A model generated the notes under the pieces. That model was not told the origin of the DNA, made no database searches, and worked only from the letters and a program-made list of their open reading frames with translations. 64,000 nt of DNA from positions 135,950-199,949 of the forward strand of contig JAUYMS010000035.1 in the NCBI GenBank assembly GCA_030698625.1, in the 5' to 3' direction. Made by a program: the position numbers and the translations under genes. The stretch is from Candidatus Omnitrophota bacterium. GTDB lineage: Bacteria > Omnitrophota > Omnitrophia > Omnitrophales > Aquincolibacteriaceae. Each line of letters starts with the position of its first letter. Position 1 is the first letter of the stretch. Below, piece by piece: positions 24,913 through 48,661 of the stretch.

Positions 24913-25091
24913 GAAGTGCCCATCTTCCTGGTCTTCCCCAGAAACCAGAAAAGATAGAAGACGAGCGAGATGCAGATCCCGAATGCCGCAACGGCCCACC
25001 CGAGGTTTACGGCAACGGACCACGTGCCGAACCACGCCAGAGTCGCGATCGAGAGAACGATAAAGAAGATGTGAAAGGATCGGAGTGACAT
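24909..25091 (-). CDS. Small two-helix membrane protein of oxidase cluster
   Basis: 60 residues with two hydrophobic stretches (about 5-25 and 29-50) and a basic C-terminus 'GKTRKMGTS'. The ATG at 25091 abuts the ctaF stop, and its own stop overlaps the next gene by ATGA, so it is co-translated with the oxidase genes. It has no recognisable family motif. It may be an accessory subunit or assembly factor. Confidence 0.55.
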   Translation of the reverse strand: MSLRSFHIFFIVLSIATLAWFGTWSVAVNLGWAVAAFGICISLVFYLFWFLGKTRKMGTS

Positions 25092-25372: not shown

Positions 25373-25380
25373 GGTTTTTC

Positions 25381-25977
25381 CTATAGTAAATAGAGTACGG
25401 GAAACAGAAAGATCCAGACAAGATCGACAAAATGCCAATAAAGACCCGCACACTCGATCCGGCCCAGGAACCGCTCCGGTTCTGTTTGCCACATAGCGCT
25501 TCCCGGGAAGAGAAGATAGAGGTTTACGACAATGCCACCGACGATGTGCAGGCCGTGCAATCCGGTTAGCGTATAGTAAATGGCATAAAAGGTGCTTGAG
25601 TTCGGAAAGTGATGGTGCTCAAATTTCGCCCCGTATTCAAAGCCCTTTACCACCAGAAAGGCGCATGCCAGCAGGATCGTAAGCCCCATATAGATTCGGA
25701 ACCTCGATAAATCCTTCATGGCCAGAGAAGCCCAAGACATGACGATCGTGACGCTCGAGGCAATCAGGATCAGCGTGTTTACGGTGGCTAAAGGAACATT
25801 CAGGAGATCCGCACCCACCGGCCACTCTGTGGCACCGGTGCGCAAAAGAATATACGCGGAGAAAAGAGCCCCGAAGAGCATGACCTCAGAGGCCAGGAAG
25901 CACCAGATGCCGAGCTTTGCATTGGTGACTCCCGTGACGGGATGGGGCTTTGAAATATATCGAATCATATCTGACAT
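25381..25977 (-). CDS. ctaE: Cytochrome c oxidase subunit III
   Basis: 198 residues, the short bacterial form of subunit III with five predicted helices. 'KLGIWCFLASEVMLFGALFSAY' carries the conserved W..FL.SE..FF segment, and 'LTGLHGLHIVGGI' and 'YWHFVDLVWIFLFPVLYL' are the classic H-containing motifs. It supports the catalytic subunit in the membrane. The ATG at 25977 is 9 nt after the subunit I stop. Confidence 0.95.
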   Translation of the reverse strand: MSDMIRYISKPHPVTGVTNAKLGIWCFLASEVMLFGALFSAYILLRTGATEWPVGADLLNVPLATVNTLILIASSVTIVMSWASLAMKDLSRFRIYMGLTILLACAFLVVKGFEYGAKFEHHHFPNSSTFYAIYYTLTGLHGLHIVGGIVVNLYLLFPGSAMWQTEPERFLGRIECAGLYWHFVDLVWIFLFPVLYLL

Positions 25978-25986
25978 AGAATTGAA

Positions 25987-27708
25987 TTAACTCCCAGATT
26001 CGTGCTGGGGATGAAAATCCTTTTCACGTCCCGGCACGCTGTACTCATAGGGGCCCCGGTAAACGGTAGGCACCGTTTCGAAATTACCGTGAGGCGGGGG
26101 AGAAGGCGTTGCCCACTCCAGAGTTGTTGCCTGCCACGGATTCGTATCGACTTTTTCCCCCCAGAAAATACTTCCGAAGAAGTTAATGATAAAGGGAATC
26201 TGCGATAAGGCCAGACACCAGGCTGAGATTGAAATGAAGACATTCAGCGGCTGCGTCGGTTGTGCGTGAGCATATTGCGTCGGATCCCACAAGCGGCGTG
26301 AAACACCGGCAAGGCCCATGGAGAACATGGGCATGAATACGCCGTTGATGAAAATAAAGGAGAACCAGAAGTGAATCTTTCCCAAGATCTCGGACATCTT
26401 TCTGCCCGTCATTTTCGGGAACCAGTAATAGATTCCCGCGAACAGGGCAAAGATGGTTCCGGGCGCTACGACATAATGAAAGTGCCCGATGACGTAATAG
26501 GTGTCATGCAGGTGAATGTCGGATGCCGCTAGGCCGAGGGGCAGTCCCGTGAGGCCGCCAATCCCAAACATCGGCAGAAAGGCAATAGCAAAGAGCATGG
26601 GCGTATTGAAGCGAATCGAGCCTCCCCAGAGGCTCAGCATTAAGGAGGTCAAGATAATCACCGAAGGAATCGAGATGATCATTGTGGTGACCTGAAAGAA
26701 GGCGCTCATTTCCGTACTCATGCCCACGAGGTACATGTGATGTGCCCAGACGATGAAGGACATGAAGCCGAGAAAAATAACCGAGTACACCATGGATTTA
26801 TACCCGTAAATCGGCTTGCGTGTATTGCAGGCCATGATTTCCGCGACGATTCCCATCGCCGGGAGAATTAGCACATAAACTTCGGGGTGCGCTAGAAACC
26901 AGAAAAGATGCTGCCAAAGCAGGGGGTTGCCGCCTCCGCTGACTTGGAGAATCTCACCGCTTACGACCAGACCGCTCGGCAGGAAAAAACTCGTGCCGGC
27001 CAGACGATCCATCAACTGCAGGACGCCGGCCGCTTCCAGCGGAGGGAAAGCCAGGAGCAGGAGAAAAGAGGTCACAAACTGGGCCCACACAAAGAACGGC
27101 AGGCGGAAAAATGAAAGCCCATCCGCCCGCAGCTGAATAATCGTGACCAGAAAATTGACCGAACCCAATAAGGAAGATGTAATAAGAAAAACCATGCCGA
27201 AAAGCCACCACGTTTGACCGGCAGGCGCAATGTCCGAAAGGGGAGGATAAGCGGTCCATCCGGACTGAGCCGCGCCTTGCGGCAGAAAGAAACTGGCCAG
27301 CATGATGACGCCGCCGACGAAATAAACCCAGTAGCTCATCATATTGAGTTTTGGGAAAGCCATATCGGGGGCCCCGATCTGCAGAGGGACAAAATAGTTT
27401 CCGAAGGCCCCGACCCCTAGGGGAACGACGCCGAGAAAAATCATGATGGTGCCGTGCATGGTACCTAGCTGATTATAAAACTCCGGAAGCATGATACCGC
27501 CGGGCATGAGCGCGTCGCCGAAAAAGCCGCCGATCCACGGCATCGGCTTCGCAGGAAAGGCCAGTTGCCAGCGCATCATGAGCATTAAACAAAACCCCAG
27601 TAAGAGAAACAGAAGTGCGGTGATGCCGTACTGAATGCCGATGACCTTGTGGTCTATCGAAAAGATGTATTTCCGCCAAAAGGGGAGTTTGTGTTCGTCA
27701 TGGCTCAT
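25987..27708 (-). CDS. ctaD: Cytochrome c oxidase subunit I
   Basis: 573 residues from the ATG at 27708, which overlaps the ctaC stop (ATGA); an ATG 24 nt upstream at 27732 is less likely. Twelve helices are expected. 'HPEVYVLILPAMG' holds the CuB His, the cross-linking Tyr and the D-channel Glu of A1-type oxidases. 'VWAHHMYLVGM' holds the other two CuB His, and 'YYVIGHFHYV' holds the heme ligands. It reduces O2 to water and pumps protons. Having O2 reduction next to Fe-S and c-di-GMP sensors suggests a facultative lifestyle. Confidence 0.97.
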   Translation of the reverse strand: MSHDEHKLPFWRKYIFSIDHKVIGIQYGITALLFLLLGFCLMLMMRWQLAFPAKPMPWIGGFFGDALMPGGIMLPEFYNQLGTMHGTIMIFLGVVPLGVGAFGNYFVPLQIGAPDMAFPKLNMMSYWVYFVGGVIMLASFFLPQGAAQSGWTAYPPLSDIAPAGQTWWLFGMVFLITSSLLGSVNFLVTIIQLRADGLSFFRLPFFVWAQFVTSFLLLLAFPPLEAAGVLQLMDRLAGTSFFLPSGLVVSGEILQVSGGGNPLLWQHLFWFLAHPEVYVLILPAMGIVAEIMACNTRKPIYGYKSMVYSVIFLGFMSFIVWAHHMYLVGMSTEMSAFFQVTTMIISIPSVIILTSLMLSLWGGSIRFNTPMLFAIAFLPMFGIGGLTGLPLGLAASDIHLHDTYYVIGHFHYVVAPGTIFALFAGIYYWFPKMTGRKMSEILGKIHFWFSFIFINGVFMPMFSMGLAGVSRRLWDPTQYAHAQPTQPLNVFISISAWCLALSQIPFIINFFGSIFWGEKVDTNPWQATTLEWATPSPPPHGNFETVPTVYRGPYEYSVPGREKDFHPQHESGS

Positions 27709-28445
27709 GGTTTTACCTGCTTTGCGAGCCATGTATCGAATTCTGTTTGCTCTTCAACCGTGAAAAAACCCCGCATGCGGTAATGGGCCAGGCCGCAGAA
27801 CTGGGCACATGCAATTTCAAATTTTCCCGTTTTGCCGGCCGTAAACCACACCGGTATTTCCTGGCCGGGGATGGTGTCCTGTTTGACTCGCATCACGGGA
27901 AGCGAAAAACTGTGAATCACATCTTTGGAGGACAGCCTTACGATAACTGGTTTGTTGACAGGCACATGGAGCTGGTTGATTGTCGTAATATCGTCCAGCG
28001 CCGCCGGGTCCGTGGGATCCAGCCCAATGGCATTACCGACTTTGACGAGATTCACGTCGGTTTTTCCGAATAGGCCGTCGGGGCCGGGGTAGTGAATATT
28101 CCATGCAAACTGCTCGGCGACAACCCGGATCTCAACGGATTCATTGCGCGCAGGCGGCACATTTCGGTACTGATGCATGATTGGGAAAGCGAAGCCCACC
28201 AGGAGGACGACTTCAAAGAGGGCCACGGCAACTTCTATATAGGAAGGGGCCTTGAAATGCTTTAAATGGTAGTTCGCCTTGTGCCCCGGGCGTGCGCGAA
28301 ATCGGAATAGCACGATGATAAGGAAGATAAACCATCCGACGAAAAGCACCGCCATGAAGCCGTGAAAGATGTATATCAGTTGGTCGATCTTTTCGCCACC
28401 GACCGACGCATTGAATGGGAGTCCCCAACCGTAATATTTTTCCAT
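27705..28445 (-). CDS. ctaC: Cytochrome c oxidase subunit II
   Basis: 246 residues: two N-terminal membrane helices followed by a periplasmic cupredoxin domain. The CuA site is intact: 'HSFSLPVMRVKQD' and 'CAQFCGLAHYRM' provide the His, Cys-x3-Cys, His and Met ligands. There is no fused cytochrome c domain, so electrons must come from a separate cytochrome c, not seen here. First gene of the minus-strand cta operon, facing the Rrf2 regulator gene across 211 bases. Confidence 0.95.
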   Translation of the reverse strand: MEKYYGWGLPFNASVGGEKIDQLIYIFHGFMAVLFVGWFIFLIIVLFRFRARPGHKANYHLKHFKAPSYIEVAVALFEVVLLVGFAFPIMHQYRNVPPARNESVEIRVVAEQFAWNIHYPGPDGLFGKTDVNLVKVGNAIGLDPTDPAALDDITTINQLHVPVNKPVIVRLSSKDVIHSFSLPVMRVKQDTIPGQEIPVWFTAGKTGKFEIACAQFCGLAHYRMRGFFTVEEQTEFDTWLAKQVKP

Positions 28446-34432: not shown

Positions 34433-35014
34433 ATGCATCCGAACGCGTTTGATTTTAGGGAGCGGCCGTTTCTGGTTATCTGGGAGACGACGCATGCCTG
34501 CGACTTGGCCTGTGTGCATTGCCGGGCTTCGGCCGACCCGAACCCGGCTCCCGACGAATTAAACCACGAAGAGGCACGCGAACTGATTCAGGGCGTCAAG
34601 GATATGGGGACGCCCATTCTTGTCTTCAGCGGCGGAGGTCCGTTGAAACGCCCCGACCTTGACGACCTCGTCCGTTATGCCAAGACGCTGAAACTGCGCA
34701 CAGGAGTCATTCCTGCGGTGACGCCTGCGCTTACCCCCGAAAGAATTCAGGCTTTAAAAGATTGCGGGCTCGATCAGATCGCCTTCAGTCTGGATGCGGC
34801 ACGGCCCGAGGAACACGATGCCTTCAGGCGGGTCGGCGGTGTGTTTGACCGCACCATGGAAAGTATTCGCATTGCCAATGAATGCGGCCTCGCCGTTCAG
34901 ATTAATTCGCTCATCAATGTACACAATCAGGAAAATCTGGATGAGTTAATTGAACTCATTGCCGGTTTCAATATCGTTTTCTGGGAAGTCTTTTTCCTGG
35001 TGCCCGTGGGCCGG
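34433..35014 (+). pseudogene. Radical SAM/SPASM protein, truncated at a junction
   Basis: About 194 codons remain. The N-terminal radical SAM core is intact: 'HACDLACVHC' (CxxxCxxC, 4Fe-4S) and 'FSGGGPLKRPDL'. The frame runs to 'FFLVPVGR', the point where AhbD/NirJ-like and TIGR04053-type proteins continue as 'GR' plus a further 150-200 residues with SPASM cysteines. Here the sequence switches into the NarK C-terminus in another frame. The open frame continues to 35137 but encodes unrelated residues. It may be a heme-modification or peptide-modifying enzyme by family. Whether the truncation is real is unknown. Confidence 0.75.
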
Positions 35015-35196
35015 TGCTGGGGTGGACATCGGCCATCGCAGCTTACGGGGCCTTTATCATTCCGAAGGTATTTGGCCAACAGATTAAAGCCGGCCATGCC
35101 GAGTATGCCCTTTATGGTTTTACGGTTTATTATTTGATTTGTCTTGTGTTAAACTGGCATTTCTATGATCGCAAGAATTCTGGAATTCAGTGTTGA
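35005..35196 (+). pseudogene. narK: NarK nitrate/nitrite transporter, C-terminal remnant
   Basis: From 35005 the frame reads 'RGPVLGWTSAIAAYGAFIIP', 'KVFGQQIKAGHAEYALYG' and 'LICLVLNWHFYDRK', the last two membrane helices of NarK-type major facilitator transporters, ending in a TGA at 35196. Nothing of the first ten helices is present. The start overlaps the last radical SAM codons in a shared ten-base CGTGGGCCGG at 35005-35014. It cannot function as a transporter. It is evidence that nitrate/nitrite transport genes stood here. Confidence 0.8.
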
Positions 35197-35362: not shown

Positions 35363-36379
35363 GTGAATCATGTTCCGCTTGTCGACTCCTATGGTCGGCA
35401 TATAAATTATCTGCGTATTTCGCTTACCGAAGCGTGCAATTTCCGCTGCGTTTATTGCGTCCCCAAGGAAGGTCTCCCTGCGCAAGTGAAGCCATCAGGC
35501 TTTCTGACTCCGGATCAGATCGCCAGATTCGCGCGCATCATCAGCGGTTTGGGTGTCTACCGCGTTCGCTTGACCGGAGGAGAACCCCTGCTTCGCACTG
35601 ATATTCTCGAGATCGTCCGCAAGATAAAAGATGTGCCTGGGATAACGGACCTTTCGATTACGACAAACGGGAGCAAGCTCGTCCCTCTGGTGCACTCGCT
35701 CAAGGCCGCCGGTCTTGACCGGGTCAATATCAGTTTCGACAGTGTCGACCCCGAGCGGTTCAAGAAGATTACCTTGTCGAATGCGTATGCGGAGGTGTTG
35801 GGGGCCGTGCATGCAGCGGTTCGTGCCGGGTTCCCGGTGAAACTCAACATGGTGATCCTTAATGGGGTTACACCCGGTGAGATCATCCGCTTTGTGGAAC
35901 TTGCCGTGAAATTTCCTTTGGAAGTTCGCTTCCTGGAATTTATGCCGCTTTGCGGCAGCGGTTGGAGTAATGATCTCTTTTATCCGATCGAAAAGGTTCG
36001 TGAGATCGTTCGGGAAAATTTCAAGCTCGGGCAGGTAGAAGCCCGGGGTTCGGAAGTCGCGCAATCATTCCCACTCGAGGGTGGCTGCGGTAAGGTCGGT
36101 TTTATTGCGTCGCTAACAGAATCGTTCTGCGAGCAATGTTCGCGCATGCGCCTGTCGGCCGACGGCCAGATCTATCCGTGTCTCTTTTCGGACACCCGCG
36201 TGTCAGTAGCGGAACTATTACGCCGGGAAGCTTCGGACGAAGCCGTAATCGAGGCGATTCGGCATGCGGCCCGCATCAAGCCTGCGGGGAACCAGTTCAA
36301 AGAACGTCCTTTTGAGAAAGATACGGGCAGGGCGGTGGAGGTTCATGAAACTCCGCTCATTCATCATATCGGAGGTTAA
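35363..36379 (+). CDS. moaA: GTP 3',8-cyclase
   Basis: 338 residues from GTG 35363, seven bases after AAAGGAG. The N-terminal radical SAM cluster 'CNFRCVYC' and 'VRLTGGEPLLR' bind SAM. The C-terminal second 4Fe-4S site has 'CEQCSRMRLSADGQIYPC' (CxxC plus C). MoaA ends in GG, and here the last residues are 'HHIGG', as needed for activity. It starts molybdenum cofactor synthesis from GTP. First gene of an eight-gene operon behind the predicted Moco riboswitch. Confidence 0.96.
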   Translation: MNHVPLVDSYGRHINYLRISLTEACNFRCVYCVPKEGLPAQVKPSGFLTPDQIARFARIISGLGVYRVRLTGGEPLLRTDILEIVRKIKDVPGITDLSITTNGSKLVPLVHSLKAAGLDRVNISFDSVDPERFKKITLSNAYAEVLGAVHAAVRAGFPVKLNMVILNGVTPGEIIRFVELAVKFPLEVRFLEFMPLCGSGWSNDLFYPIEKVREIVRENFKLGQVEARGSEVAQSFPLEGGCGKVGFIASLTESFCEQCSRMRLSADGQIYPCLFSDTRVSVAELLRREASDEAVIEAIRHAARIKPAGNQFKERPFEKDTGRAVEVHETPLIHHIGG

Positions 36380-36383
36380 TTTT

Positions 36384-37358
36384 ATGACGAGTCAAAAACT
36401 AGCAGTAAAAAAAGAGAAGGGGAATACTGTGTCCCAGTTGCAAGGGGGGCAGATGCGCTCGGTTACGGACAAGATCGACACGCACCGCATCGCGACGGCT
36501 GTAAGTTCTGTTCGCGCGAAGCCTGAAACCTTGGAGCGCCTGAAGGCAAACGATGTCCCCAAAAAGGATGTCCTGTTAATGGCGCGAGCCGCGGGCATTA
36601 TGGCCGCGAAGAAGACAAGCGAGCTGATTCCGTATTGTCATCCGCTACCTATTGATGTGGTTGAAATTCACTTTGAGATTACGGCTGACGCTGTGGTGAT
36701 AACGGCCCTTGTCGAAGCCCTGTGGAAGACCGGCGTTGAAATGGAAGCGCTGACGGCAGCTTCGGTGGCAGCGTTGACGGTCTACGATATGCTAAAACCC
36801 GTTGACAAGGACTTGGAGATTGTTTCCACGCGGCTACTCCGGAAGAAAGGGGGAAAGTCGGGGTTCCGGGAGTGGACACCCGAAGGTTTTAAAACCGCGG
36901 TAATCGTCACCTCGGACGGCACGGCTCAAGGAAAGCGCGAAGACAAATCGGGAAAAATCATCCGCGAACGGCTCGAAGCCCACGGCTTGACGGCACTCTA
37001 CAAGGTTATTCCCGATGATAAAGAATTGATCCGCGCCACGCTTACGGCCTATTGCGATGAGGGGGTTCATCTCATTTTGACTACCGGAGGAACGGGCCTG
37101 GGGCCGCGTGACGTGACTGTCGAGGCCACCGCTGAGATCATGGATCGGGAGATCCCCGGTATTATGGAAGCGGCCAGAAGCTATGGTCAGCGGCGCACGC
37201 CCTACGCCATGCTGTCGCGAGGATTAGCGGCACAGCGCGGCAACAGCCTCATTATCAATTTGCCCGGCTCTTCAAACGGGGTACGCGAGTCGCTGAATGC
37301 GATCTTTCCCGGGATATTGCACGCCTATTCCATGATGGGGGGAGGCGGTCACTCGTGA
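36384..37358 (+). CDS. moaCB: Bifunctional MoaC/MoaB fusion
   Basis: ATG 36384 (GGAGG eight bases before) gives 324 residues; the longer frame into moaA is not used. Residues about 20-160 are MoaC (cyclic pyranopterin monophosphate synthase: 'KKTSELIPYCHPLPID', 'KTGVEMEALTAAS', 'DMLKPVDKDLEI'). Residues about 170-324 are a MoaB/Mog molybdopterin adenylyltransferase domain ('LTTGGTGLGPRDVTVEAT' and 'NLPGSSNGVRESLNAIFPGI'). Such fusions are known in several phyla. It joins the second and the last-but-one steps of Moco synthesis in one chain. Confidence 0.95.
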   Translation: MTSQKLAVKKEKGNTVSQLQGGQMRSVTDKIDTHRIATAVSSVRAKPETLERLKANDVPKKDVLLMARAAGIMAAKKTSELIPYCHPLPIDVVEIHFEITADAVVITALVEALWKTGVEMEALTAASVAALTVYDMLKPVDKDLEIVSTRLLRKKGGKSGFREWTPEGFKTAVIVTSDGTAQGKREDKSGKIIRERLEAHGLTALYKVIPDDKELIRATLTAYCDEGVHLILTTGGTGLGPRDVTVEATAEIMDREIPGIMEAARSYGQRRTPYAMLSRGLAAQRGNSLIINLPGSSNGVRESLNAIFPGILHAYSMMGGGGHS

Positions 37359-38104
37359 CGGAGCTTCCGGCTTGGCTTATCGCCGGGTTTTTCCTCATCG
37401 CCCTCTTTTATTCAATGGTGGGTTTTGGCGGAGGCTCTTCTTACTTGGCGGTTCTCGTCTTGGCGGGTCTTTCCTATCAAACCATTCCGTCGCTCGCCCT
37501 TTGCTGCAATCTCATCGTTACCGCAGGGGGCTGTTGGCATTTTTATCGTGCCGGCCATTTTCGTATTAGAAATGTTCTGCCGTTTATTATTCTTTCCGTT
37601 CCCATGGCGTATCTGGGCGGGAGAATGCATGTCTCGAAAGAGGTTTTCTGCATCCTCCTGGGATTTTCCCTTTTTGCCGTAGCCGTTCGAATGTTTATGC
37701 CTAATCGCATTTCTCAGGATCCCCGAGAAATCTCGGTGAAGCATGCGTGGGCGATTGGCGTCCCTCTCGGCGGGGCATTGGGGTTGTTGGCAGGAATTGT
37801 GGGTATCGGCGGCGGTATCTTCCTTAGCCCGCTGCTCCTACTCATGCGTTGGGTCACGGTCAAGCAGGCCGCGGCGGCTGCCAGTTTTTTTATCCTATTT
37901 AATTCTATTTCCGGTCTAGCGGGACAGCTGCAAAAGGGAGCCGTTGATGCGGCGCTACTGTTGCCGCTCGGGCTTGCGGTGTTTGCCGGCGGCCAGATCG
38001 GATCGCGGCTCGGCGCCTATCGCATACCCGTCATACGATTACAGCAGATGATTGGGGTTCTGGTTTTGTATGTCTCGGTCCGGCTGATCATGGGGGCCTT
38101 ATGA
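37355..38104 (+). CDS. TauE/SafE-family permease
   Basis: 249 residues with about eight membrane helices and the two-fold repeat of the family ('FYSMVGFGGGSSYLAVLVL' and 'GIVGIGGGIFLSPLLLLM'). GTG 37355 overlaps the moaCB stop and its own stop overlaps moeA (ATGA), so it is translated as part of the Moco operon. TauE/SafE proteins move sulfite, sulfoacetate or other small anions. Placement here suggests a substrate linked to the cofactor, such as a sulfur or molybdenum oxyanion; that is inference. Confidence 0.88.
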   Translation: MTELPAWLIAGFFLIALFYSMVGFGGGSSYLAVLVLAGLSYQTIPSLALCCNLIVTAGGCWHFYRAGHFRIRNVLPFIILSVPMAYLGGRMHVSKEVFCILLGFSLFAVAVRMFMPNRISQDPREISVKHAWAIGVPLGGALGLLAGIVGIGGGIFLSPLLLLMRWVTVKQAAAAASFFILFNSISGLAGQLQKGAVDAALLLPLGLAVFAGGQIGSRLGAYRIPVIRLQQMIGVLVLYVSVRLIMGAL

Positions 38105-39330
38105 TTACAATTAATGAAGCGCAAACGCGAATACAGAAATCGATTCCTCCTTTACGGACCGAGACGCTGCCTCTCGGCCGATCCTTAGGTTACATCCTAG
38201 CCGAAGACATTAGAGCGGGCGTCGATTTGCCGACAGCGGACAACTCGGCCATGGATGGCTTCATTTTAAGGTCTCGCGATACGGCTTCCGCGTCTGCGGT
38301 GCGCCCTGTGCGTTTACGTATTCGAGGCGCCATCAAAGCGGGGGACCGAGGACCGCGTCTCCTGGCTAAGGGAGAAGCCTACAGGATTATGACAGGTGCA
38401 TTTATTCCGCGCGGGGGTGACACCGTTCTCATTAAAGAGAATGCGGTTATCGAGAAGGGGAAGCTTGTCATTGCCGCGCCCCTCAAGCCGGGTTCTCATA
38501 TCCGCCGCAGGGGTGAAGAGCTGCGTAAAGGCAGCAAGATCCTGAAAATGGGCGGTGCCATTCATCCCGGCATCGTCGGCATTCTGGCTTCCGTTGGGCG
38601 CGATCGCATCAAGGTTTTCACCAAACCGCGAGTCTCCGTGATTGCGACGGGCAGTGAACTCGTCGAACCCGGCCGCAGACTCAGAAGGGGCCAAATCTAC
38701 AATAGTAATGCATGGATGATTTGGGCGGCGTTGCAATCCATGGGCGTGACCCCTGTTGCCGTGATGACGGCGCGCGACCAACTTTCCGTTTTGAAGACGG
38801 CGGTTAAAAAGGCGCTCGGCAAGAGTGATCTTGTCATTATTATGGGCGGCGTCTCAGTCGGAGATTATGATTTTGTCAAAGACGTGCTCGGGGGATTCGG
38901 AGTGCGTCAAATCTTTTGGAAGGTAAAGCAAAAGCCGGGTAAACCGCTCTATTTTGGAAAGCAGGGGCGCGCACTTGTCTTCGGCCTGCCCGGAAACCCG
39001 GCCAGCGTTTTTACCTGCTTTTATGAATATGTCTTCGGCGCAATCAGGCAGATGTCGGGGTTTCGCCGTCCCTACTTGCGGCGTGAAAACGTGATGCTCC
39101 AAACGCCCATTCGCGGCGACGCGAAACGCAGTCTACTGCTTAAGGCGAAAATGAGTACGCGGTTCCGAAAGAGAACCATTGCACCCCTGGGATTTCAGGC
39201 TTCCCATATGATCTCATCGCTGCGTGATACGGATAGCTTCATTGTAATCCCCCCCGGCCGAAAGACCGTAGCTAGGGGAAAGAAAGCGACGGCGGATCTA
39301 TTACCCTATGCCGTGGAGGTCGAATCATGA
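38101..39330 (+). CDS. moeA: Molybdopterin molybdenumtransferase
   Basis: 409 residues, normal for MoeA. 'LPTADNSAMDGFIL' is the conserved N-terminal signature, 'PRGGDTVLIKEN' lies in domain 2, 'TGSELVEPGRRLRRGQIYNS' and 'VIIMGGVSVGDYDFVKDVL' form the adenylated molybdopterin and molybdate site, and 'GLPGNPASVFTCF' follows. It inserts molybdate into adenylated molybdopterin. It is coupled at both ends by ATGA overlaps to the permease and moaD genes. Confidence 0.96.
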   Translation: MITINEAQTRIQKSIPPLRTETLPLGRSLGYILAEDIRAGVDLPTADNSAMDGFILRSRDTASASAVRPVRLRIRGAIKAGDRGPRLLAKGEAYRIMTGAFIPRGGDTVLIKENAVIEKGKLVIAAPLKPGSHIRRRGEELRKGSKILKMGGAIHPGIVGILASVGRDRIKVFTKPRVSVIATGSELVEPGRRLRRGQIYNSNAWMIWAALQSMGVTPVAVMTARDQLSVLKTAVKKALGKSDLVIIMGGVSVGDYDFVKDVLGGFGVRQIFWKVKQKPGKPLYFGKQGRALVFGLPGNPASVFTCFYEYVFGAIRQMSGFRRPYLRRENVMLQTPIRGDAKRSLLLKAKMSTRFRKRTIAPLGFQASHMISSLRDTDSFIVIPPGRKTVARGKKATADLLPYAVEVES

Positions 39331-39572
39331 AGATAAAGGTGTTATTCTTTGCGCAGTTTCGTGATTTGCTCGGAGCCGCCGAAAGGTCAGTCGAGGCTGA
39401 GGAGGGAACCACGGCGGGGAACCTTGTGAAGTCCCTTTTGGAAGAGAGCGGCAAGTCTAAGTATCACGAGCTTCCCGTCCTGTATGCGATCAATGAGAAC
39501 TTCGAAAAGGCGGAGACCGTACTTCGAGATCAAGACGTACTGGCCGTGTTACCGCCGGTTTCGGGAGGTTAA
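39327..39572 (+). CDS. moaD: Molybdopterin synthase small subunit (sulfur carrier)
   Basis: 81 residues with a beta-grasp fold: 'IKVLFFAQFRDLLG' at the start and the obligatory C-terminal Gly-Gly ('LPPVSGG') that carries the thiocarboxylate. It overlaps moeA by ATGA and ends two bases before the GTG of its partner moaE. It donates sulfur to precursor Z in the MoaD2-MoaE2 complex. Confidence 0.95.
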   Translation: MKIKVLFFAQFRDLLGAAERSVEAEEGTTAGNLVKSLLEESGKSKYHELPVLYAINENFEKAETVLRDQDVLAVLPPVSGG

Positions 39573-39573
39573 T

Positions 39574-40002
39574 GTGTTCTTGACGCGTGACCCCATTATT
39601 CCGGGGGTTTTTTTTAGCCGGGTTTTGGATCCGACTTGCGGCGCGGCGGCTACCTTTGTAGGTGCCGTTCGCAATCATCATGAGGGCAAGCCCGTGCATG
39701 AACTCTGTTACGAGTGCTACGAGGTGATGGCAGAGAGGCAGTTGGCCCACATTGCCGACGATGTGAAAAAAAAGTACGGCGTTTTCTCGGTGCGGATCTC
39801 ACACCGGGTTGGCTGGCTTCAGATCGGCGACGTGGCCGTGGCCATCGAAGTCAGTTCGGCGCATCGCGATGAGGCCTTTCGCGCTTGCCGCGACGTCATC
39901 GAACAGATCAAAGTGAGTGTCCCGATATGGAAAAAGGAAGTCTACGCGGACGGCACTTCCGAATGGGTCATTTGCACGCATCAGCATCAGGAGATCTCAT
40001 GA
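39574..40002 (+). CDS. moaE: Molybdopterin synthase large subunit
   Basis: 142 residues from GTG 39574, five bases after GGGAGG; the frame is open further upstream within moaD but that part is not MoaE-like. 'TFVGAVRNHHEGKPVHELCY', 'RISHRVGWLQIGDVAVAIEV', 'SAHRDEAFRACRDVIEQIK' and 'PIWKKE' are the diagnostic MoaE motifs, with the active-site Lys residues. With MoaD it converts precursor Z to molybdopterin. Confidence 0.95.
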   Translation: MFLTRDPIIPGVFFSRVLDPTCGAAATFVGAVRNHHEGKPVHELCYECYEVMAERQLAHIADDVKKKYGVFSVRISHRVGWLQIGDVAVAIEVSSAHRDEAFRACRDVIEQIKVSVPIWKKEVYADGTSEWVICTHQHQEIS

Positions 40003-40589
40003 ATCGGCCGTTTGTAGGCATTATCCTGGCGGGGGGCAAAAGCCGCCGTTTCGGAAAGGATAAGGCGCTGGCGGAGGTTGGCGGACGCTCCATGATTGAA
40101 CACGCCGTTTCCCTCATGCGCTTGCTCGGAATGGACCCGTGTATTGTGACCGCGCCGTCGCGGGATTACCGCTTTACGTCCTGCCGTATTGAAGCGGACA
40201 TCTTTCCGGACCGAGGACCGCTGGCCGGGCTCTGCACGGCGTGCCGCCTTTTTCCGGCGAGGCGTCTTTTAGTGCTGACCTGCGACATGCCGGGGCTCGA
40301 CGTTCAGACCTTACGAAGGCTTATTCAGTGCCACGATCCCCGGAGCACTGCGACGGTTTTTCGCACGTCCGCAGAGCTTGTCCATCCGTTTCCCGGAATC
40401 TACGAGGCTTCCCTTGCCGGCGAGATTCTCCGGCATCTTCACGCGGGTCAGAGCTCCATGAAAGGTTTTTTGGCAGGGCTATCCCGGGTCCGGTTCATTT
40501 CCGCCGGGCCGGCAAGTCTTAGTCTTACCAACATCAATGACGAAAAGACATGGCAACAGTTTAAGGTGAAGGTCGCAGGGAGGGTGTGA
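39999..40589 (+). CDS. mobA: Molybdenum cofactor guanylyltransferase
   Basis: ATG 39999, overlapping the moaE stop, gives 196 residues. 'GIILAGGKSRRFGKDKALAEV' is the nucleotidyltransferase P-loop, and 'FPDRGPLAGLCTA' and 'LLVLTCDMPGLD' (metal-binding Asp) are MobA signatures. 'TNINDEKTW' near the end also fits. MobA attaches GMP to Moco to form the bis-MGD cofactor used by nitrate reductases and other DMSO-reductase-family enzymes, none of which remains in the window. Confidence 0.93.
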   Translation: MNRPFVGIILAGGKSRRFGKDKALAEVGGRSMIEHAVSLMRLLGMDPCIVTAPSRDYRFTSCRIEADIFPDRGPLAGLCTACRLFPARRLLVLTCDMPGLDVQTLRRLIQCHDPRSTATVFRTSAELVHPFPGIYEASLAGEILRHLHAGQSSMKGFLAGLSRVRFISAGPASLSLTNINDEKTWQQFKVKVAGRV

Positions 40590-42316: not shown

Positions 42317-43009
42317 ATGAAAAAGCCCAAACCGCAAATCGGCATCGAAGACGTTCCTTTGTTTCGCGGCCTTACGAAAGAGGACCTTCAGGCGCTGAAG
42401 CCATGTTTGCGGGAGCGCAGCTTCGACAAAGGCGAGGTTTTGTTTCACGAAGGCGCTCAATGCGAGAGGATCTTTATCGTCCGGTCGGGGCGGGTGAAGC
42501 TTTACCGGCTTGCCGCGACGGGTCGAGAGCAGATTCTGGAGACCCTGGAGACGGGTGACACCTGTGCTTGTAATCCGGGTGAGAAGACGTGGAGTTGTTC
42601 TTCTTCGGCTGAAGCTGCGACACCCTGCAGTGTCTGGTTTTTATCACGCTTCGACTACCTCAAACTGGTTGAGTCGAACTCGAAGTTTACCAACAGCCTC
42701 AACCACCTCTTCGCCGAGAAACTTCGCTGCTTCAGCACGCTCATCGAAGATTTCTCCCTGAAGGATTCCCGCTCGCGTCTGGTCAAATTTCTTTTGGATA
42801 TGCAGGCCAAGAAAAGTGTGACGGCTTCCAAGGACGGGGTGCTCTACATCCCGTTTACCCGTGAAGAGATCGCGCAGAGAATCGGTACGGTCAGAGAAAC
42901 CGTGGCCCGCCAGCTGCATCAACTCAAAGATCTGAACCTCATCGATATCAAGCCGAATCAAATTATCATCCTCGACAAAGAAGGTCTCGAGGCCCTCCTT
43001 CGCCAGTAA
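42317..43009 (+). CDS. Crp/Fnr-family transcription regulator with CRP-type recognition helix
   Basis: 230 residues: an N-terminal cyclic-nucleotide-binding-like barrel ('VLFHEGAQCERIFIVRSGRV', 'ILETLETGD') and a C-terminal winged helix. The recognition helix 'TVRETVARQLHQL' keeps the R-E-T-V-x-R residues of E. coli CRP that read TGTGA, unlike the ExxSR of FNR. The middle has clustered cysteines ('DTCACNPGEKTWSC', later 'PC'), which could sense redox or NO; the FNR N-terminal cysteines are absent. A perfect TGTGA-N6-TCACA site lies 59 bp downstream, before the hemerythrin operon, the probable target. Confidence 0.88.
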   Translation: MKKPKPQIGIEDVPLFRGLTKEDLQALKPCLRERSFDKGEVLFHEGAQCERIFIVRSGRVKLYRLAATGREQILETLETGDTCACNPGEKTWSCSSSAEAATPCSVWFLSRFDYLKLVESNSKFTNSLNHLFAEKLRCFSTLIEDFSLKDSRSRLVKFLLDMQAKKSVTASKDGVLYIPFTREEIAQRIGTVRETVARQLHQLKDLNLIDIKPNQIIILDKEGLEALLRQ

Positions 43010-43110: not shown

Positions 43111-43131
43111 TTAAAGAGGAGGGTAGTGTTC

Positions 43132-43677
43132 ATGGGCCAAAATGGTAACGGTTCCGCCGGTATTGCGGTTTATATAACGCAGCGTAATGAGACGGCTTTG
43201 AAGAAAGCTGGGGAGCTTAACGATTTGCTGACTCGGAGCCGCTATGAAGGCAAAATGCATTTTGGCCGAAATCTAGACGCGATTACGCGGCTTGTTGCTT
43301 ACTTCGATAAGGAATTCGGGGAGCATTTGCGGTTGGAAGAAGAAGTGATCTACCCCTATCTAGAGAAACACGTGCCGAAGTCGCGCAGTCCGCTGGCTTT
43401 CCTCAGGGGCGAGCATGCGGACTTCAGGTCGCGTTTGGGTGAGATTAAATCCTGTGCCGCGCGGCTCGGCAAGCAGAAAACAGACAGTGAGCGTTCACTG
43501 ATCTTTGAGATGCTTCAAAACACGGGGGTCTATCTGGTTTATTGGACAAGAAATCACTTGCATGCTGAAAACGAAAGCGTCTATAAGATGATAGACAATC
43601 AGTTGTTACCGGAGGAAAAAAGAGAGTTGTCGCGCGAAGTGACAACTTATGCAGAATCCTTAGCCAAAAGGAATTGA
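43132..43677 (+). CDS. Hemerythrin-like HHE-domain protein
   Basis: ATG 43132, eight bases after AGGAGGG; a GTG at 43126 is too close to it. 181 residues. 'FDKEFGEHLRLEEEVIYPYL', 'LRGEHADFRSRLGEIK' and 'TRNHLHAENESVYKMID' supply the spaced His and Glu of a diiron hemerythrin four-helix bundle. Proteins of this type bind O2 or NO or repair Fe-S centres under nitrosative stress. First gene of an eight-gene operon that ends in an octaheme cytochrome. Confidence 0.85.
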   Translation: MGQNGNGSAGIAVYITQRNETALKKAGELNDLLTRSRYEGKMHFGRNLDAITRLVAYFDKEFGEHLRLEEEVIYPYLEKHVPKSRSPLAFLRGEHADFRSRLGEIKSCAARLGKQKTDSERSLIFEMLQNTGVYLVYWTRNHLHAENESVYKMIDNQLLPEEKRELSREVTTYAESLAKRN

Positions 43678-43683
43678 TTAAGC

Positions 43684-43935
43684 GTGATCAGTAAGGAAGA
43701 ACTCACGGAAATACTAAAGGCCGTCATGAAGTTTGAAGAGGAGATGACGCCGGTCATATTCGAGAAGAGTCTGAGTTGTTTGCGTGAAATCCGGCGCGAG
43801 AGCTCGATGACCGAAGAGGACCAGAAGCGGATGCGCGACCTCCTTTTCCGGTTAGTCGATGAGGCCAAGGGTCACGAAAACGTGATTAAAGATCTGATCC
43901 GGCGCGTAGAAACGAGTCCTGACCGTGAGTACTAG
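43684..43935 (+). CDS. Small helical protein (paralogue of the 44934 gene)
   Basis: 83 residues from GTG 43684, six bases after the hemerythrin gene; its end overlaps the next gene by 11 bases. It is all helical. The C-terminal 'LVDEAKGHENVIKDLIRRV' aligns with 'LSDDSKRHKEMLWEIIDRL' of the gene at 44934, sharing D(D/E)xKxH(K/E), and both may be ferritin/rubrerythrin-like helices. No function is known. The operon position suggests partnership with the ferritin-like GGDEF protein. Confidence 0.6.
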   Translation: MISKEELTEILKAVMKFEEEMTPVIFEKSLSCLREIRRESSMTEEDQKRMRDLLFRLVDEAKGHENVIKDLIRRVETSPDREY

Positions 43936-44944
43936 CGGCAGGATTCGCGGATTGGTACACGCCATCCGCCTGCAGGAAGAGAAGGCGAAGAACGTTTACA
44001 GTGGATTACTCGGCCGCCTGAGTGATGACACCCTCAGACGCGATGTGGCCCGGTTTCGCGATGAAGAGGCGAGTCACGTACGAATCACTGATGAGCTCCT
44101 GGGTGTTCTCGACAAGTATGAAGCCCGCGGCCAATCTTTCGGCGCCCGCCACGGCGGTTTTCTGTGGAAGATTTACGTTATTATCGGCATCGTTCTTGGG
44201 ATGGGCGCTCCGATCGGCTGCATTTTGATTCGTTACCTGTGGCAGCAACCCGAGGATCTGAGCCTTTGGTGGAATCACGAGTTCAGTCAAAACCGATGGT
44301 TTTATGTGTACATGACGGTCGGCACCGTTTTCACCTTCAGTCTGTCGGGATGGGTCGTTGGATTTGTCCACGATCGTCTTAGTGCGCAGGCCAAGAAGCT
44401 TACCCTGCAGACGCGGGTCTTTGAGGAGCGCTCGGAAAAGGATTCGCGTACCGGGCTTTATAATTTCGCGGCCGTCAAAGACCGGCTTATGAGCGAAATT
44501 GAGAGAGCTAAGCGCTTTGGTTCACCGCTGACCTGTCTGATGATCGATATCGATAATCTCAAAGAGGTCAATGATACCCATGGCCACCCTGCCGGTGACG
44601 AAGTCATTTATTACGTATCACAAGTCCTAGAGAATGAGATTCGTGTTATCGATACGGCGGCTCGCTATGGCGGCGATGAGTTCTTTGTGATATTGCCGGT
44701 TACGCCGAGTGACGGGGCACGCACCGTGGCCGAAAGGATTCGCGCGAAGGCCGCTGACGGGGTAGCGGTGCACGGCGGCACGCTTATCAAGACGTCGGTG
44801 AGCATAGGGGTGGCAGGCTATCCCTCGTCGCGAGTGTGGGATGTCCACTCTCTCATTGAGGAAGCCGATCGGGTTATGTATGAAGCGAAGCATCAAGGGC
44901 GCAATAAAGTCGTTTTACCCGAGGAAATCAAAGATGAATCTTAG
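43925..44944 (+). CDS. Ferritin-like domain/two-TM/GGDEF protein
   Basis: 339 residues from GTG 43925. Residues about 10-65 resemble a half ferritin/rubrerythrin bundle: 'LQEEKAKNVYSGLLGRL', then 'RFRDEEASHVRITDEL' with ExxH. Two membrane helices follow (about 80-100 and 125-150). A GGDEF domain with 'LIDIDNLKEVNDTHGHPAGD' and the intact 'RYGGDEFFVILP' fills the C-terminal half. The layout suggests a cyclase anchored in the membrane and controlled by a small diiron or metal-binding module. I do not know this architecture as a described family. Confidence 0.8.
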   Translation: MSTSGRIRGLVHAIRLQEEKAKNVYSGLLGRLSDDTLRRDVARFRDEEASHVRITDELLGVLDKYEARGQSFGARHGGFLWKIYVIIGIVLGMGAPIGCILIRYLWQQPEDLSLWWNHEFSQNRWFYVYMTVGTVFTFSLSGWVVGFVHDRLSAQAKKLTLQTRVFEERSEKDSRTGLYNFAAVKDRLMSEIERAKRFGSPLTCLMIDIDNLKEVNDTHGHPAGDEVIYYVSQVLENEIRVIDTAARYGGDEFFVILPVTPSDGARTVAERIRAKAADGVAVHGGTLIKTSVSIGVAGYPSSRVWDVHSLIEEADRVMYEAKHQGRNKVVLPEEIKDES

Positions 44945-45176
44945 AGGGAATGAAAAAAAGGCGATGATCGGTAAGCTCCTCGTCGACATGGAAGAAGAAG
45001 ATGTCGCTATCAGCCTCTTTGACATTTTTATGAAAAATACGGATGAGCTCGAATATTTCCCGGAGGAGGAGCGTTCGCGGGTAGTAAAAATTCTAAAGCG
45101 GCTTTCCGACGACAGTAAGAGGCATAAGGAAATGCTGTGGGAAATTATTGATCGTCTGGGCAAGGGGCACCCATGA
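44934..45176 (+). CDS. Small helical protein, ferritin-like helix
   Basis: 80 residues from ATG 44934, overlapping the GGDEF gene's end by 11 bases. Helical throughout: 'MIGKLLVDMEEEDVAISLFD', an acidic loop 'EYFPEEERSR', then 'LSDDSKRHKEMLWEIIDRL'. The last helix matches the protein at 43684. The ATG at 44961 is an alternative start. Function is unknown. Confidence 0.6.
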   Translation: MNLRGNEKKAMIGKLLVDMEEEDVAISLFDIFMKNTDELEYFPEEERSRVVKILKRLSDDSKRHKEMLWEIIDRLGKGHP

Positions 45177-45415
45177 AAAAGGAGTTCCTTCATAGACTGT
45201 GGCGGTTGAGATTCGATAAGATGCGCAAGACGGAAGAGGAAGCTGCTTGGGCTTACCAAGATATGCTCGATAAATGCCTTGTACTGCTCAGCAAGCAGGA
45301 CCCTGTTATCGAGATGCTCCGTACCCTCGTTCGCGAAGAAAGAATTCATGAAAAGTTGGCCGAAGAGCTGGGCAAGATATGCCAGCGTTGCCACCCTGAA
45401 GTGGAGTCGGACTAG
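45173..45415 (+). CDS. Small helical protein with ExxH motif
   Basis: 80 residues; the ATG overlaps the previous stop (ATGA) and its TAG is directly followed by the GTG of the Rieske gene. 'TEEEAAWAYQDMLDKCLVLL' and 'VREERIHEKLAEELGKI' (ExxH) resemble two helices of a ferritin-like bundle, and 'CQRCH' near the C-terminus looks like CxxCH but is cytoplasmic, without a signal peptide, so heme attachment is unlikely. Function is unknown. Confidence 0.6.
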   Translation: MKKEFLHRLWRLRFDKMRKTEEEAAWAYQDMLDKCLVLLSKQDPVIEMLRTLVREERIHEKLAEELGKICQRCHPEVESD

Positions 45416-45913
45416 GTGAGCCAAGATCAAGAGGAAAGACCGGTCAATCGGGGGCGGCGGTCATTCATGGAGCGGGCCGCCTCTTTTTTTATGATGACCG
45501 GGCTGGTGGCCGGCTATGGTTATTTTCTATCCATTGCGGCCCGCTTCCTGTATCCCGCGGACGGTCAGAAAAAGGGGTGGCTCTTCGTTAAAACCCTAAA
45601 GGAGTTTGAACCGGGTCAGTCTCATGAATACTATTCACCGGCCGGTGAGAAAATCGTGGTCACCAGGCAGGGAGCTGCCGACATCGCCGAAGATTTTACC
45701 GCATTATCCAGTACCTGCCCTCATCTGGGATGCCAGGTACATTGGGAAGCAAACAATGACCGGTTTTTCTGCCCGTGCCACAGTGGTGCTTTTGATCTTA
45801 ACGGCCGGGCTGTTTCCGGGCCGCCGGCCGATGCGGGGCAGAGCCTTCCGCGTTATCCCTTAAAAGTCGAGAACGGTCTGCTTTTTATCCAGACGTTACT
45901 CAAGAAGATATAA
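45416..45913 (+). CDS. Rieske iron-sulfur protein of a bc-type complex
   Basis: 165 residues. A Tat-type N-terminus 'RGRRSFMERAASFFMMTG' provides a signal-anchor helix. The Rieske domain has Cys101-Pro-His103-Leu-Gly-Cys106 and Cys119-Pro-Cys121-His122, i.e. all four [2Fe-2S] ligands and the stabilising disulfide pair. It accepts an electron from quinol at the cytochrome b Qo site. It lies immediately before cytochrome b. GTG start, zero spacing from the gene before. Confidence 0.95.
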   Translation: MSQDQEERPVNRGRRSFMERAASFFMMTGLVAGYGYFLSIAARFLYPADGQKKGWLFVKTLKEFEPGQSHEYYSPAGEKIVVTRQGAADIAEDFTALSSTCPHLGCQVHWEANNDRFFCPCHSGAFDLNGRAVSGPPADAGQSLPRYPLKVENGLLFIQTLLKKI

Positions 45914-45924
45914 AGGGTTTTACC

Positions 45925-46974
45925 GTGGGTTCGTTAAAGTCGTGGTTCCAGGAGCGTCTTCCAGTTTCCGGAGAACAACTTCGTGAAATGACGAATGAAC
46001 CCGTGCCCAATCACCTCAAGAGGTGGTGGTTCTGTCTGGGCGGTACGCCGGCCTATCTTTTTCTTATCCAGATCATGACGGGAATTCTCCTGGCATTCTA
46101 CTACGAGCCCTCGACCAAGACCGCGTATGAGTCCGTCCGTTATATCACCGAAGAAGTCAATTTCGGGTGGTATTTGCGCAGTGTGCACAAGTGGGCTGCC
46201 ACATTTATGATTGCGTCGGTGATCTTACATCAGATGCGTGTTTTCTTTACGGGGGCCTACCGGAAGCCGCGTGAGATCAATTGGATGGTCGGCATGACCC
46301 TGCTCGTATGCACACTACTGACGGGCTTTACCGGCTATAGCCTTGTTTACGAACAACTGAGTTACTGGGGGGCTACGGTCGGTGCGAACATTTCCGACAG
46401 CATTCCCTGGATCGGCGGATTTCTCAAAAAAATGATGCTGGCGGGAGACACGTACAACGAGAGGACACTCTCCCGCTTTTTCGTGCTGCACGGCGCCATT
46501 CTACCGGCCACGATCGTGGTGTTATTGATTGTCCATATTTCGATTATTCGCCTGCAGGGGATTACCGAGCTGAAATTCGAGGAGGACCGGGACGATAAGC
46601 CCGGTCATTTCAATTTTTTCCCGGATCATCTCATGACGGAACTGATCATCGGTCTGGTGCTGATGATTATCCTTAGCGCCTTGGCCACGATTTTGCCGGC
46701 GACACTCGGCGAAAAGGCGAACCCCCTTGTCACGCCCGAAGTCATCAAGCCGGAATGGTTTTTTTATGTGATGTTCAGGTGGCTGAAACTCTTTTCGGGC
46801 ACCACGGCGGTCCTGAGTACGGGGTTCATTGTTTTTACCATGTTTTTTTGGCCCTTTATTGACGATTGGCTGCGGAAGAAAACGCGTGTTTCTGAGATCA
46901 GTGTTTGGATCGGCATCGCGGCCGTCTTCGCTATCGTGGGTCTTACATTATGGGAAGCTATCGTCGCACATTGA
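45925..46974 (+). CDS. Cytochrome b of a bc-type complex
   Basis: 349 residues. The N-terminal four-helix part has the heme His pairs 14 residues apart ('SVHKWAATFMIASVILHQMR' and 'VLHGAILPATIVVLLIVH'). The C-terminal part corresponds to b6f subunit IV ('KANPLVTPEVIKPEWFF'-like region), and the Qo-site PEWY motif reads PEWF. With the Rieske protein it oxidises (mena)quinol. No cytochrome c1 or f gene follows; the next gene is an octaheme cytochrome. GTG start. Confidence 0.94.
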   Translation: MGSLKSWFQERLPVSGEQLREMTNEPVPNHLKRWWFCLGGTPAYLFLIQIMTGILLAFYYEPSTKTAYESVRYITEEVNFGWYLRSVHKWAATFMIASVILHQMRVFFTGAYRKPREINWMVGMTLLVCTLLTGFTGYSLVYEQLSYWGATVGANISDSIPWIGGFLKKMMLAGDTYNERTLSRFFVLHGAILPATIVVLLIVHISIIRLQGITELKFEEDRDDKPGHFNFFPDHLMTELIIGLVLMIILSALATILPATLGEKANPLVTPEVIKPEWFFYVMFRWLKLFSGTTAVLSTGFIVFTMFFWPFIDDWLRKKTRVSEISVWIGIAAVFAIVGLTLWEAIVAH

Positions 46975-47005
46975 GAAAACGCGAATCTTAGAAAGGAGTT
47001 AGGCC

Positions 47006-48661
47006 ATGTCACTCAGGACAAAGCAATTCATTATCGCAGGTCTCGGTTTCATATTTCTTTTGTCGCTCGTTTTTGTCGAATGGCGTGAGGTCATTCGGAA
47101 GCAGGAAGAAGCGGGGCTGGCCAAGCCGCACATTGCGGTGCCGGAGAGTTCGGCAAAGTGTGTCGAATGCCATCGGCAGGAAACGCCGGGGATTGTGGAC
47201 CATTGGGAGGGGAGCACGCACGCGCAACGCGGGATAAGCTGTTTTGAATGTCACCAGGCCGTGAAGGGTGACGCCGACGCCTTCGACCATTATGGAGCAA
47301 AGATTGCGACGGTCGTTTCTCCGCGGGATTGCGCGCGTTGTCACTCGGACGTGGCCAAAGAATTTTCCGAAAGCCATCACGCCAAGGCCGGAAACATATT
47401 GGCATCGCTCGATAATTTTCTCGCGGAAACGGTTGAGGGGTCACGGGGCTTCTTTAATCCGCACTCGCCGACGCCGGGCATGGCGGTCGACAAAGTCAAT
47501 GGTATGGCGAGCGCGTTTTCGGGCTGTCAACAATGTCACGGCAGCAAGGTGGGCTTACAGTCGACCGACGGTGGTATGATCACTGCCGATGATCTCAAGC
47601 CCGATGAAGACGGCCAGCCGACCAATGAAAGTGCCATCGGCCGTATCCTCAAGGATTCAAACGGTAAGCCTCTCTATCATCCGGGCACTTGGCCGAATAC
47701 TGGAATTGGCCGCATCAATTTGGATGGGTCACTCGGATCATGTACAGCTTGTCATTCCCGCCACGATTTCTCACCGCGCCGGGCACGGCAGCCGGAAAAC
47801 TGCGGGAAGTGCCATTTGGGTCCGGATCATCCGCAGAAGGAAATTTACGAAGAGTCCAAACACGGTGTGGCTTACAGGGACCTTCGCGAGCAGATGAATC
47901 TCAATGGGGATTCCTGGGTATTAGGACAGGACTACTCCCAAGCCCCCACTTGCGCGACATGTCACATGTCGGGACATACACGCAATCAGGGAAAGATTAC
48001 GCACGATCCGGGAGAGCGTATTTCTTGGACCAACCGGCCGCCGGTGAGTTTGAAGATGGACACTGACGCGGATCACAACATCGTTACCGAAACGGATCCC
48101 GCCAAAAGAGCGGCGAAAATCGTGGATACCTCGGAGGCAAAGCGTAACCGTATGAAAGCGGTATGTGGTCATTGCCATACACCGGATTACGTCAACGCGT
48201 TTTACAAGCAATATGACGACCTGGTGGTTCTTTACAATGAAAAATTCGCCAAGTCGGGCCAGAAAATCATTGGGTCCTTACGCGAACAGAAACTCATTAC
48301 GGAAACGCAGTTTGACGAAGAGATCGAATGGACCTGGTTCTACCTGTGGCATCATGAGGGACGCCGTGCCCGTCACGGGGCATCCATGATGGCGCCCGAC
48401 TATACGCATTGGCACGGCATGTTCGAGGTGGCGGATCGCTTCTATATGCATTTGATCCCGCAAGCCCGCGAGATTGCCGATCACGCTGCTTCAGAAGGCA
48501 ATGTCGCTGCGGCTGCCGCCGTAAACGCTGTGATTAGCGGTATTCTGGCGCGTCCCGAGCATCAATGGTTTGAAGAGGGTGCCGAAGAGCAGATGGCCAA
48601 GATCCGCAAGGGGATGGAAGAGCGCTACGGTCAGGGAGGCGAGAGCCAGTCCAAAAAGTAG
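47006..48661 (+). CDS. Octaheme HAO-family cytochrome c
   Basis: 551 residues with an N-terminal membrane anchor (8-26) and eight CxxCH sites at residues 52, 79, 109, 174, 246, 266, 316 and 387. Spacing, 'CHSRHDFSPRRARQPENC', and the C-terminal 'HHEGRRAR...MMAPDY' signature (449-466) place it in the hydroxylamine oxidoreductase/octaheme nitrite reductase family. Tyr466 might correspond to the cross-linking Tyr of oxidising HAO, but alignment is needed. AAAGGAG precedes the ATG. It probably receives electrons from the Rieske/cytochrome b pair and reduces nitrite, NO or hydroxylamine; the reverse direction is possible. Confidence 0.92.
   Translation: MSLRTKQFIIAGLGFIFLLSLVFVEWREVIRKQEEAGLAKPHIAVPESSAKCVECHRQETPGIVDHWEGSTHAQRGISCFECHQAVKGDADAFDHYGAKIATVVSPRDCARCHSDVAKEFSESHHAKAGNILASLDNFLAETVEGSRGFFNPHSPTPGMAVDKVNGMASAFSGCQQCHGSKVGLQSTDGGMITADDLKPDEDGQPTNESAIGRILKDSNGKPLYHPGTWPNTGIGRINLDGSLGSCTACHSRHDFSPRRARQPENCGKCHLGPDHPQKEIYEESKHGVAYRDLREQMNLNGDSWVLGQDYSQAPTCATCHMSGHTRNQGKITHDPGERISWTNRPPVSLKMDTDADHNIVTETDPAKRAAKIVDTSEAKRNRMKAVCGHCHTPDYVNAFYKQYDDLVVLYNEKFAKSGQKIIGSLREQKLITETQFDEEIEWTWFYLWHHEGRRARHGASMMAPDYTHWHGMFEVADRFYMHLIPQAREIADHAASEGNVAAAAAVNAVISGILARPEHQWFEEGAEEQMAKIRKGMEERYGQGGESQSKK

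Follow-up and report, generated by a model that had tools for sequence, protein, structure and literature searches.

The window, the whole 64,000-nucleotide stretch of DNA that was analysed, comes from an Omnitrophota genome of 3.52 Mb that is 95% complete, in which it spans C50:135950-199949. Three of its open reading frames encode a Rieske protein, a cytochrome b and an octaheme cytochrome c, all on one strand and separated by gaps of 11 and 31 bases (Table 1). An operon of these three genes at 45416-48661 had been predicted from the DNA alone; all three reading frames were found there, and the Pfam assignments agreed. The stop codon of a small upstream reading frame directly abuts the Rieske start. 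Farther upstream, the CRP/FNR-family protein is, by its position, a possible regulator of the operon. Judging from the translations, the molybdenum cofactor run comprises MoaA-, MoaC/MogA-, MoeA-, MoaD-, MoaE- and MobA-like proteins.

Table 1. Features of the operon and its surroundings; positions are those of the window.
Feature	Position	Strand	Length	Basis or remark
Rieske [2Fe-2S] protein	45416..45913	+	165 aa	PF00355, E=1e-12
Cytochrome b, one chain	45925..46974	+	349 aa	PF00033, 8e-54; PF00032, 5e-08
Octaheme cytochrome c, wider HAO superfamily	47006..48661	+	551 aa	PF13447, 2e-20
Small helical protein, may be an operon leader	45173..45415	+		ORF; no Pfam family
CRP/FNR-family regulator, upstream	42317..43009	+		PF00027, PF13545
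Hemerythrin-domain protein, upstream (context)	43126..43677	+		PF01814
Molybdenum cofactor biosynthesis genes (context)	35363..40589	+		translations read by eye
Oxidase cluster, caa3-type	24909-28445			same 64-kb window

Other parts of the window were also inspected. The segment just before the Rieske gene (43684-45415) encodes small helical proteins, for which a Pfam search returned no match, and a GGDEF protein with a ferritin-like N-terminus. A radical SAM protein related to AhbD/NirJ (34433-35137) matches the first half of TIGR04053 alone (192 of 366 positions), and its gene is possibly frameshifted or truncated. At 35-17938 there is a 5967-amino acid reading frame with repeated RSELR modules, parts of which resemble several unrelated enzyme domains; we take these modules to be of the kind found in giant Omnitrophota proteins.

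Hydropathy analysis of the Rieske protein revealed one N-terminal hydrophobic segment behind an RRSFM stretch, resembling a Tat-like anchor. The cluster ligands lie in CPHLGC and CPCHSG, and both CxH motifs are kept in 76 of 77 relatives. In bc1 complexes, a Ser and a Tyr near the Rieske cluster raise its potential. The corresponding motif columns, compared over the 77 relatives, contain Gly124 and Phe126, and a Rieske protein lacking the potential-raising residues would suit menaquinol. The second motif reads CPCHNGxF in the family and CPCHSGAF in the Omnitrophota operon.

In the cytochrome b, a b6 part and a subunit-IV part are fused in one 349-residue chain. The heme-ligand histidines (His88/His102 and His189/His204) are present and invariant in the alignment, and we take the spacing of the second pair, with 14 residues between, to be of the b6 type. 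Cys37 occupies the position of the b6 heme-ci cysteine in a 12-sequence alignment. Heme ci was not supported as a family trait, this position being Cys in 37 relatives and Ala in 40. The Qo motif, of the PEWY type, is PEWF (residues 276-279, 46750-46761); the original prediction called this variant unusual, and it turned out to be the family norm, occurring in 71 of 79 members. At two loci (L080:8562-9998 and L054:8542-9960) the family match of the cytochrome b is split into two stretches, in the case of L080 within one 509-amino acid frame, which suggests that a segment has been inserted between b6-like and subunit-IV-like parts. As had been predicted, the operon contains no cytochrome c1; a profile search of the genome's proteins with the c1 family PF02167 also gave no match, and among 41 operon-bearing genomes only weak fragments were obtained, in three of them.

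The third protein fits its description as a membrane-anchored eight-heme protein: its CxxCH motifs number exactly eight (residues 52, 79, 109, 174, 246, 266, 316 and 387), and its single hydrophobic segment is N-terminal (residues 8-26). A profile search against PDB gave significant matches to HAO, HDH and HAOr entries, and the match to the NrfA model was weak and below its cut-off. All 81 proteins compared share Asp274-His275 (47825-47830) and Tyr466. In an octaheme tree computed in quick mode without bootstrap, a branch with support 100 parts the operon family from HDH, HOX, HAOr, the anammox R/b-3 octaheme protein and other planctomycete forms, and the operon family is grouped with relatives from the phylum of locus L066 and one anammox paralogue. 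Two more distant Rieske-cytochrome b-octaheme sets, L269 and L271, were also found, the octaheme protein of L269 falling outside on a long branch.

The original prediction had raised the question of whether Tyr466 is the tyrosine that cross-links the P460 heme. We aligned the protein with HDH and HOX sequences, a set without HAO sequences of aerobic nitrifiers. In an alignment over the full length, the HDH tyrosine fell on Trp469, and the C-terminal segment was then aligned by itself. In three C-terminal alignments the ATY motif of HDH and HOX aligned with YTH, which puts the tyrosine on His468 (48407-48409), a residue that is invariant or nearly so. The ATY tyrosine is presumably the cross-linker, since it is the tyrosine common to HDH and HOX in this region. 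Gapless scoring clearly favored His468 for HDH (10 versus −8 or less), and for HOX it did not separate His468 from His470. As no alignment puts the cross-linking tyrosine on Tyr466, this candidate was rejected. A 2025 study reported His at the P460 cross-link site in reductive members of the HAO superfamily (PMC12758564). By alignment, then, the cross-link residue of the octaheme protein is His468, of the reductive type.

These results bear on an oxidative role, in which hydroxylamine (or NO) would be oxidised and the electrons would enter the quinone pool through a reversed complex. Although the protein belongs to the HAO superfamily by sequence and has an invariant tyrosine near the cross-link site, the site itself holds His468 and the branch described above parts the protein from HDH and HOX. 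Moreover, the NapA context described below is reductive, and reversed flow from the Rieske protein to quinone would be uphill. We therefore regard oxidation as very improbable.

A structure prediction built from 29 close relatives was of low confidence (pLDDT 61.6), too low for heme ligation or oligomer state to be read from it. Its best fold match was the HAO-like nitrite reducer 6h5l, a weak one (E=6e-5).

A scan that took a single genome for each species turned up at least 572 relatives of the octaheme protein, and 80 loci with octaheme identities of 68-76% were examined in detail. Neighbours were counted by tblastn, the upstream counts being made over the 76 loci with at least 1.9 kb of upstream sequence. 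The cytochrome b gene lies directly upstream of the octaheme gene in 75 of these and the Rieske gene in 74, a linkage far beyond chance. The relatives are spread over many phyla, and their record titles name Planctomycetota, Acidobacteriota, Gemmatimonadota, Omnitrophota, Chlamydiae, Krumholzibacteriota, Chloroherpetonaceae and 'Deltaproteobacteria', among others. The family is rare in Omnitrophota (3 of 285 genomes), and one of the three carriers (L116) has no Rieske or cytochrome b gene beside the octaheme gene. Seven further Omnitrophota genomes have a shorter related octaheme protein. At L090-L095 and L117-L122 this relative is about 490 amino acids long and 45-48% identical, and no Rieske or cytochrome b gene of the operon family was found beside the shorter genes in the stretches read. 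The patchy occurrence among Omnitrophota suggests horizontal transfer.

Among the 73 loci with room for a downstream gene, NapA is the next gene after the octaheme gene in 27, leaving 46 without an adjacent NapA. Its identity was confirmed at one locus, where TIGR01706 and NF010055 both scored above cut-off. A four-heme protein follows NapA in 25 of the 73 loci, with a sub-threshold match to NapB. The more distant relative L271 has NapA, a NapB-like protein, Rieske, cytochrome b and the octaheme protein together. Strong NapA matches (E below 1e-140) were present in about 17 of 41 genomes with the operon and a strong NrfA match in only one; with NrfA so rare, the octaheme protein would be the natural candidate for the nitrite reductase that works with Nap. 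A genome-wide profile search of the Omnitrophota host found neither NapA nor NrfA, and no dissimilatory nitrate reductase was found in this genome. Its sole NapA-related molybdoenzyme is encoded on another contig, in a NirB-NirD-molybdoenzyme-NarK cluster that is probably assimilatory. For this host, a local supply of nitrite can thus only be supposed, which counts against a nitrite reductase.

Our favored reading, which we hold with some confidence on sequence grounds, is that the three proteins form a membrane-bound physical complex, a menaquinol:nitrite oxidoreductase, in which the Rieske protein would reduce the octaheme enzyme directly. Quinol would be oxidised by cytochrome b at the Qo site. 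One electron would return through the b hemes to the quinone pool, adding to the proton gradient, and the other would go to the Rieske protein, one of low-potential type, and from it directly to the membrane-anchored octaheme protein, which would occupy the place of c1 or f. Nitrite would be reduced at a five-coordinate heme of this protein, probably to ammonium, or else to NO. In many relatives the adjacent NapA and the four-heme NapB-like carrier would provide this nitrite by reducing nitrate in the same compartment. The loci that have no adjacent NapA count against a nitrite reductase, as does the possibility that some HAO-superfamily proteins only carry electrons. The original prediction had quinol electrons pass straight to the reduction of nitrite, NO or hydroxylamine; an N-oxide acceptor is probably correct, given the adjacent NapA genes in relatives and the histidine at the cross-link site, with nitrite as the likeliest candidate.

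The regulators and other neighbours were considered next to this proposal, as they could point to a reductase that detoxifies NO or hydroxylamine, or balances redox, rather than to a respiratory nitrite reductase. A CRP/FNR regulator and a hemerythrin are encoded near the operon and an Rrf2 regulator and a globin further off; moreover, a single heme-copper oxidase was found in the host genome, with no further member of the COX1 family (such as NorB), and no dissimilatory nitrate reductase was found, as noted above. However, not all of these neighbours recur at other loci: tblastn placed CRP near one other locus among the relatives and gave no hemerythrin match near their loci. The NapA linkage in relatives points instead to a respiratory pathway, and a Q-cycle complex would be an odd choice for pure detoxification, leaving this explanation distinctly unlikely. 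Rrf2-type regulators with an NsrR/IscR-like cysteine set lie within 5 kb before the operon in about nine relatives, among them L002:4770-5240, L054, L058, L073 and L080; we count these regulators in favor of the menaquinol:nitrite oxidoreductase.

The host genome encodes a second R/b complex, on the minus strand of contig G000:C38 (locus L112:5995-11355). It comprises a Rieske protein of 185 amino acids, a cytochrome b of 283, a subunit-IV-like protein of 360 and a 938-amino acid protein with eight CxxCH motifs. This complex bears on the possibility that the octaheme protein serves chiefly as a wire in place of c1, its catalytic site being idle or secondary, and that the operon encodes a general complex III feeding periplasmic carriers such as NapB or those of the caa3-type oxidase. 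The lack of c1 in the host, the oxidase cluster in the same window and the adjacent NapA, which could be the true electron acceptor, would all fit such a complex. The case for a general complex III is weakened because the second R/b complex has its own multiheme c subunit and is better placed for that function. In addition, neither the catalytic-type Asp-His pair nor the C-terminal motif varies across many phyla, an invariance that would be needless in a mere wire, and well over half of the loci have no adjacent NapA. We consider a wire rather unlikely.

The second complex also clarified the relationship to anammox bacteria, in which a kindred arrangement of bc-complex and HAO-like genes had been suggested. 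The R/b-3 clusters of anammox loci L253 and L259 contain Rieske, cytochrome b, a hexaheme protein and an HAO-like octaheme protein. In the cytochrome b tree, the anammox R/b-3 protein groups with the host's second R/b complex (support 99), away from the operon family, and the L253/L259 cytochrome b proteins are 57-61% identical to that second complex. The octaheme proteins of the operon and of R/b-3 are only 24-26% identical, and in the octaheme tree the R/b-3 protein groups with HAOr. Phylogeny thus separated the operon protein from HDH, HOX and HAOr and spoke against its kinship to the anammox R/b-3 octaheme protein. We find it hardly credible that the operon and the R/b-3 complex (kuste4569-4574) are orthologous and share a function. 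Both do join a Rieske/cytochrome b complex to an HAO-like octaheme protein (PMC12954380; L253, L259), but the Omnitrophota operon has no counterpart of the additional hexaheme c subunit, and both trees are against orthology, barring badly misleading rooting or sampling. With octaheme protein and cytochrome b both apart from the anammox ones, the likeness is one of analogy. These data suggest that Rieske/cytochrome b complexes were joined to octaheme proteins more than once.

A menaquinol:nitrite oxidoreductase of this kind would conserve energy during nitrite reduction, and hundreds of genomes of uncultured bacteria now scored as having no nitrite reductase would carry one. Going further, the operon could represent an unnamed type of complex, a Q-cycle quinol:nitrite reductase that works without a soluble carrier, makes ammonification proton-motive at quinol oxidation and stands in for NrfAH; we give this wider claim slightly less than an even chance. 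If true, NrfAH would be replaced across the NrfA-poor Planctomycetota, Acidobacteriota, Gemmatimonadota, Omnitrophota and others, and the proton-motive quinol-oxidising step would set this nitrite ammonification apart from that by classical NrfAH. There is also a consequence for annotation: 'hydroxylamine oxidoreductase'-type models match the octaheme protein yet suggest the opposite direction, and Tyr466 illustrates how readily one could mistake the protein for an oxidative enzyme.

Several known systems resemble the operon or its parts. NrfA is a pentaheme protein in which the lysine-ligated CxxCK catalytic heme is not universal, and the electron donor in NrfAH is NrfH rather than a Q-cycle complex. 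NrfAH, ONR and TaNiR resemble the proposed operon product in reducing nitrite in the periplasm with multiheme proteins and in working alongside Nap. A CxxCK heme is present in TaNiR-type enzymes (PMC12142623). This heme of NrfA and TaNiR is missing in the operon protein, all eight motifs of which are CxxCH. In Phycisphaerae, candidate HAO-like nitrite reductases were described without a link to a bc-type complex (PMC11266412).

Among solved structures, the best sequence match, obtained with the family profile, is PDB 4qo5, a 'hypothetical multiheme protein' (E=6e-53). This is presumably the Ignicoccus hospitalis octaheme protein, and we know of no link between it and a Rieske/cytochrome b complex. 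The second best sequence match and best fold match, HAOr Kustc0457/0458 (PDB 6h5l), is, like the operon protein, an octaheme protein of the HAO superfamily without the tyrosine cross-link, and it reduces nitrite to NO. It differs in being soluble, in its partner subunit and in belonging to a separate clade.

The Kuenenia R/b-3 complex resembles the operon in combining Rieske/cytochrome b with an HAO-like octaheme protein that is a proposed nitrite reducer (PMC12954380, PMC12485887). In contrast to the operon, it has an octaheme protein on the HAOr side, a split cytochrome b of another clade, and both an extra hexaheme subunit and an NAD(P) oxidoreductase; its closer counterpart in the Omnitrophota host is the second R/b complex.

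We found no description of the operon as a widespread module in the open-access literature. The closest counterpart is that of Caldithrix abyssi, in which genes for Rieske and cytochrome b (Cabys_2558, 2557) and an octaheme 'epsilon-Hao' (Cabys_2556) lie beside a nap cluster (PMC5317091). C. abyssi ammonifies nitrate without NrfA, and its authors proposed electron transfer from Rieske/cytochrome b to the octaheme protein (PMC5317091). The same genes occur in the same order in the Omnitrophota operon, and both systems have no NrfA, no canonical bc1 and no cross-link tyrosine; the octaheme proteins are likened here by gene content and published description rather than by clade. C. abyssi differs in having a NapMADGH-type cluster and a tetraheme NapM, whereas the Omnitrophota genome has no Nap. 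Given the published Rieske/cytochrome b-octaheme-Nap cluster of C. abyssi, the Omnitrophota operon is a variant of a known arrangement.
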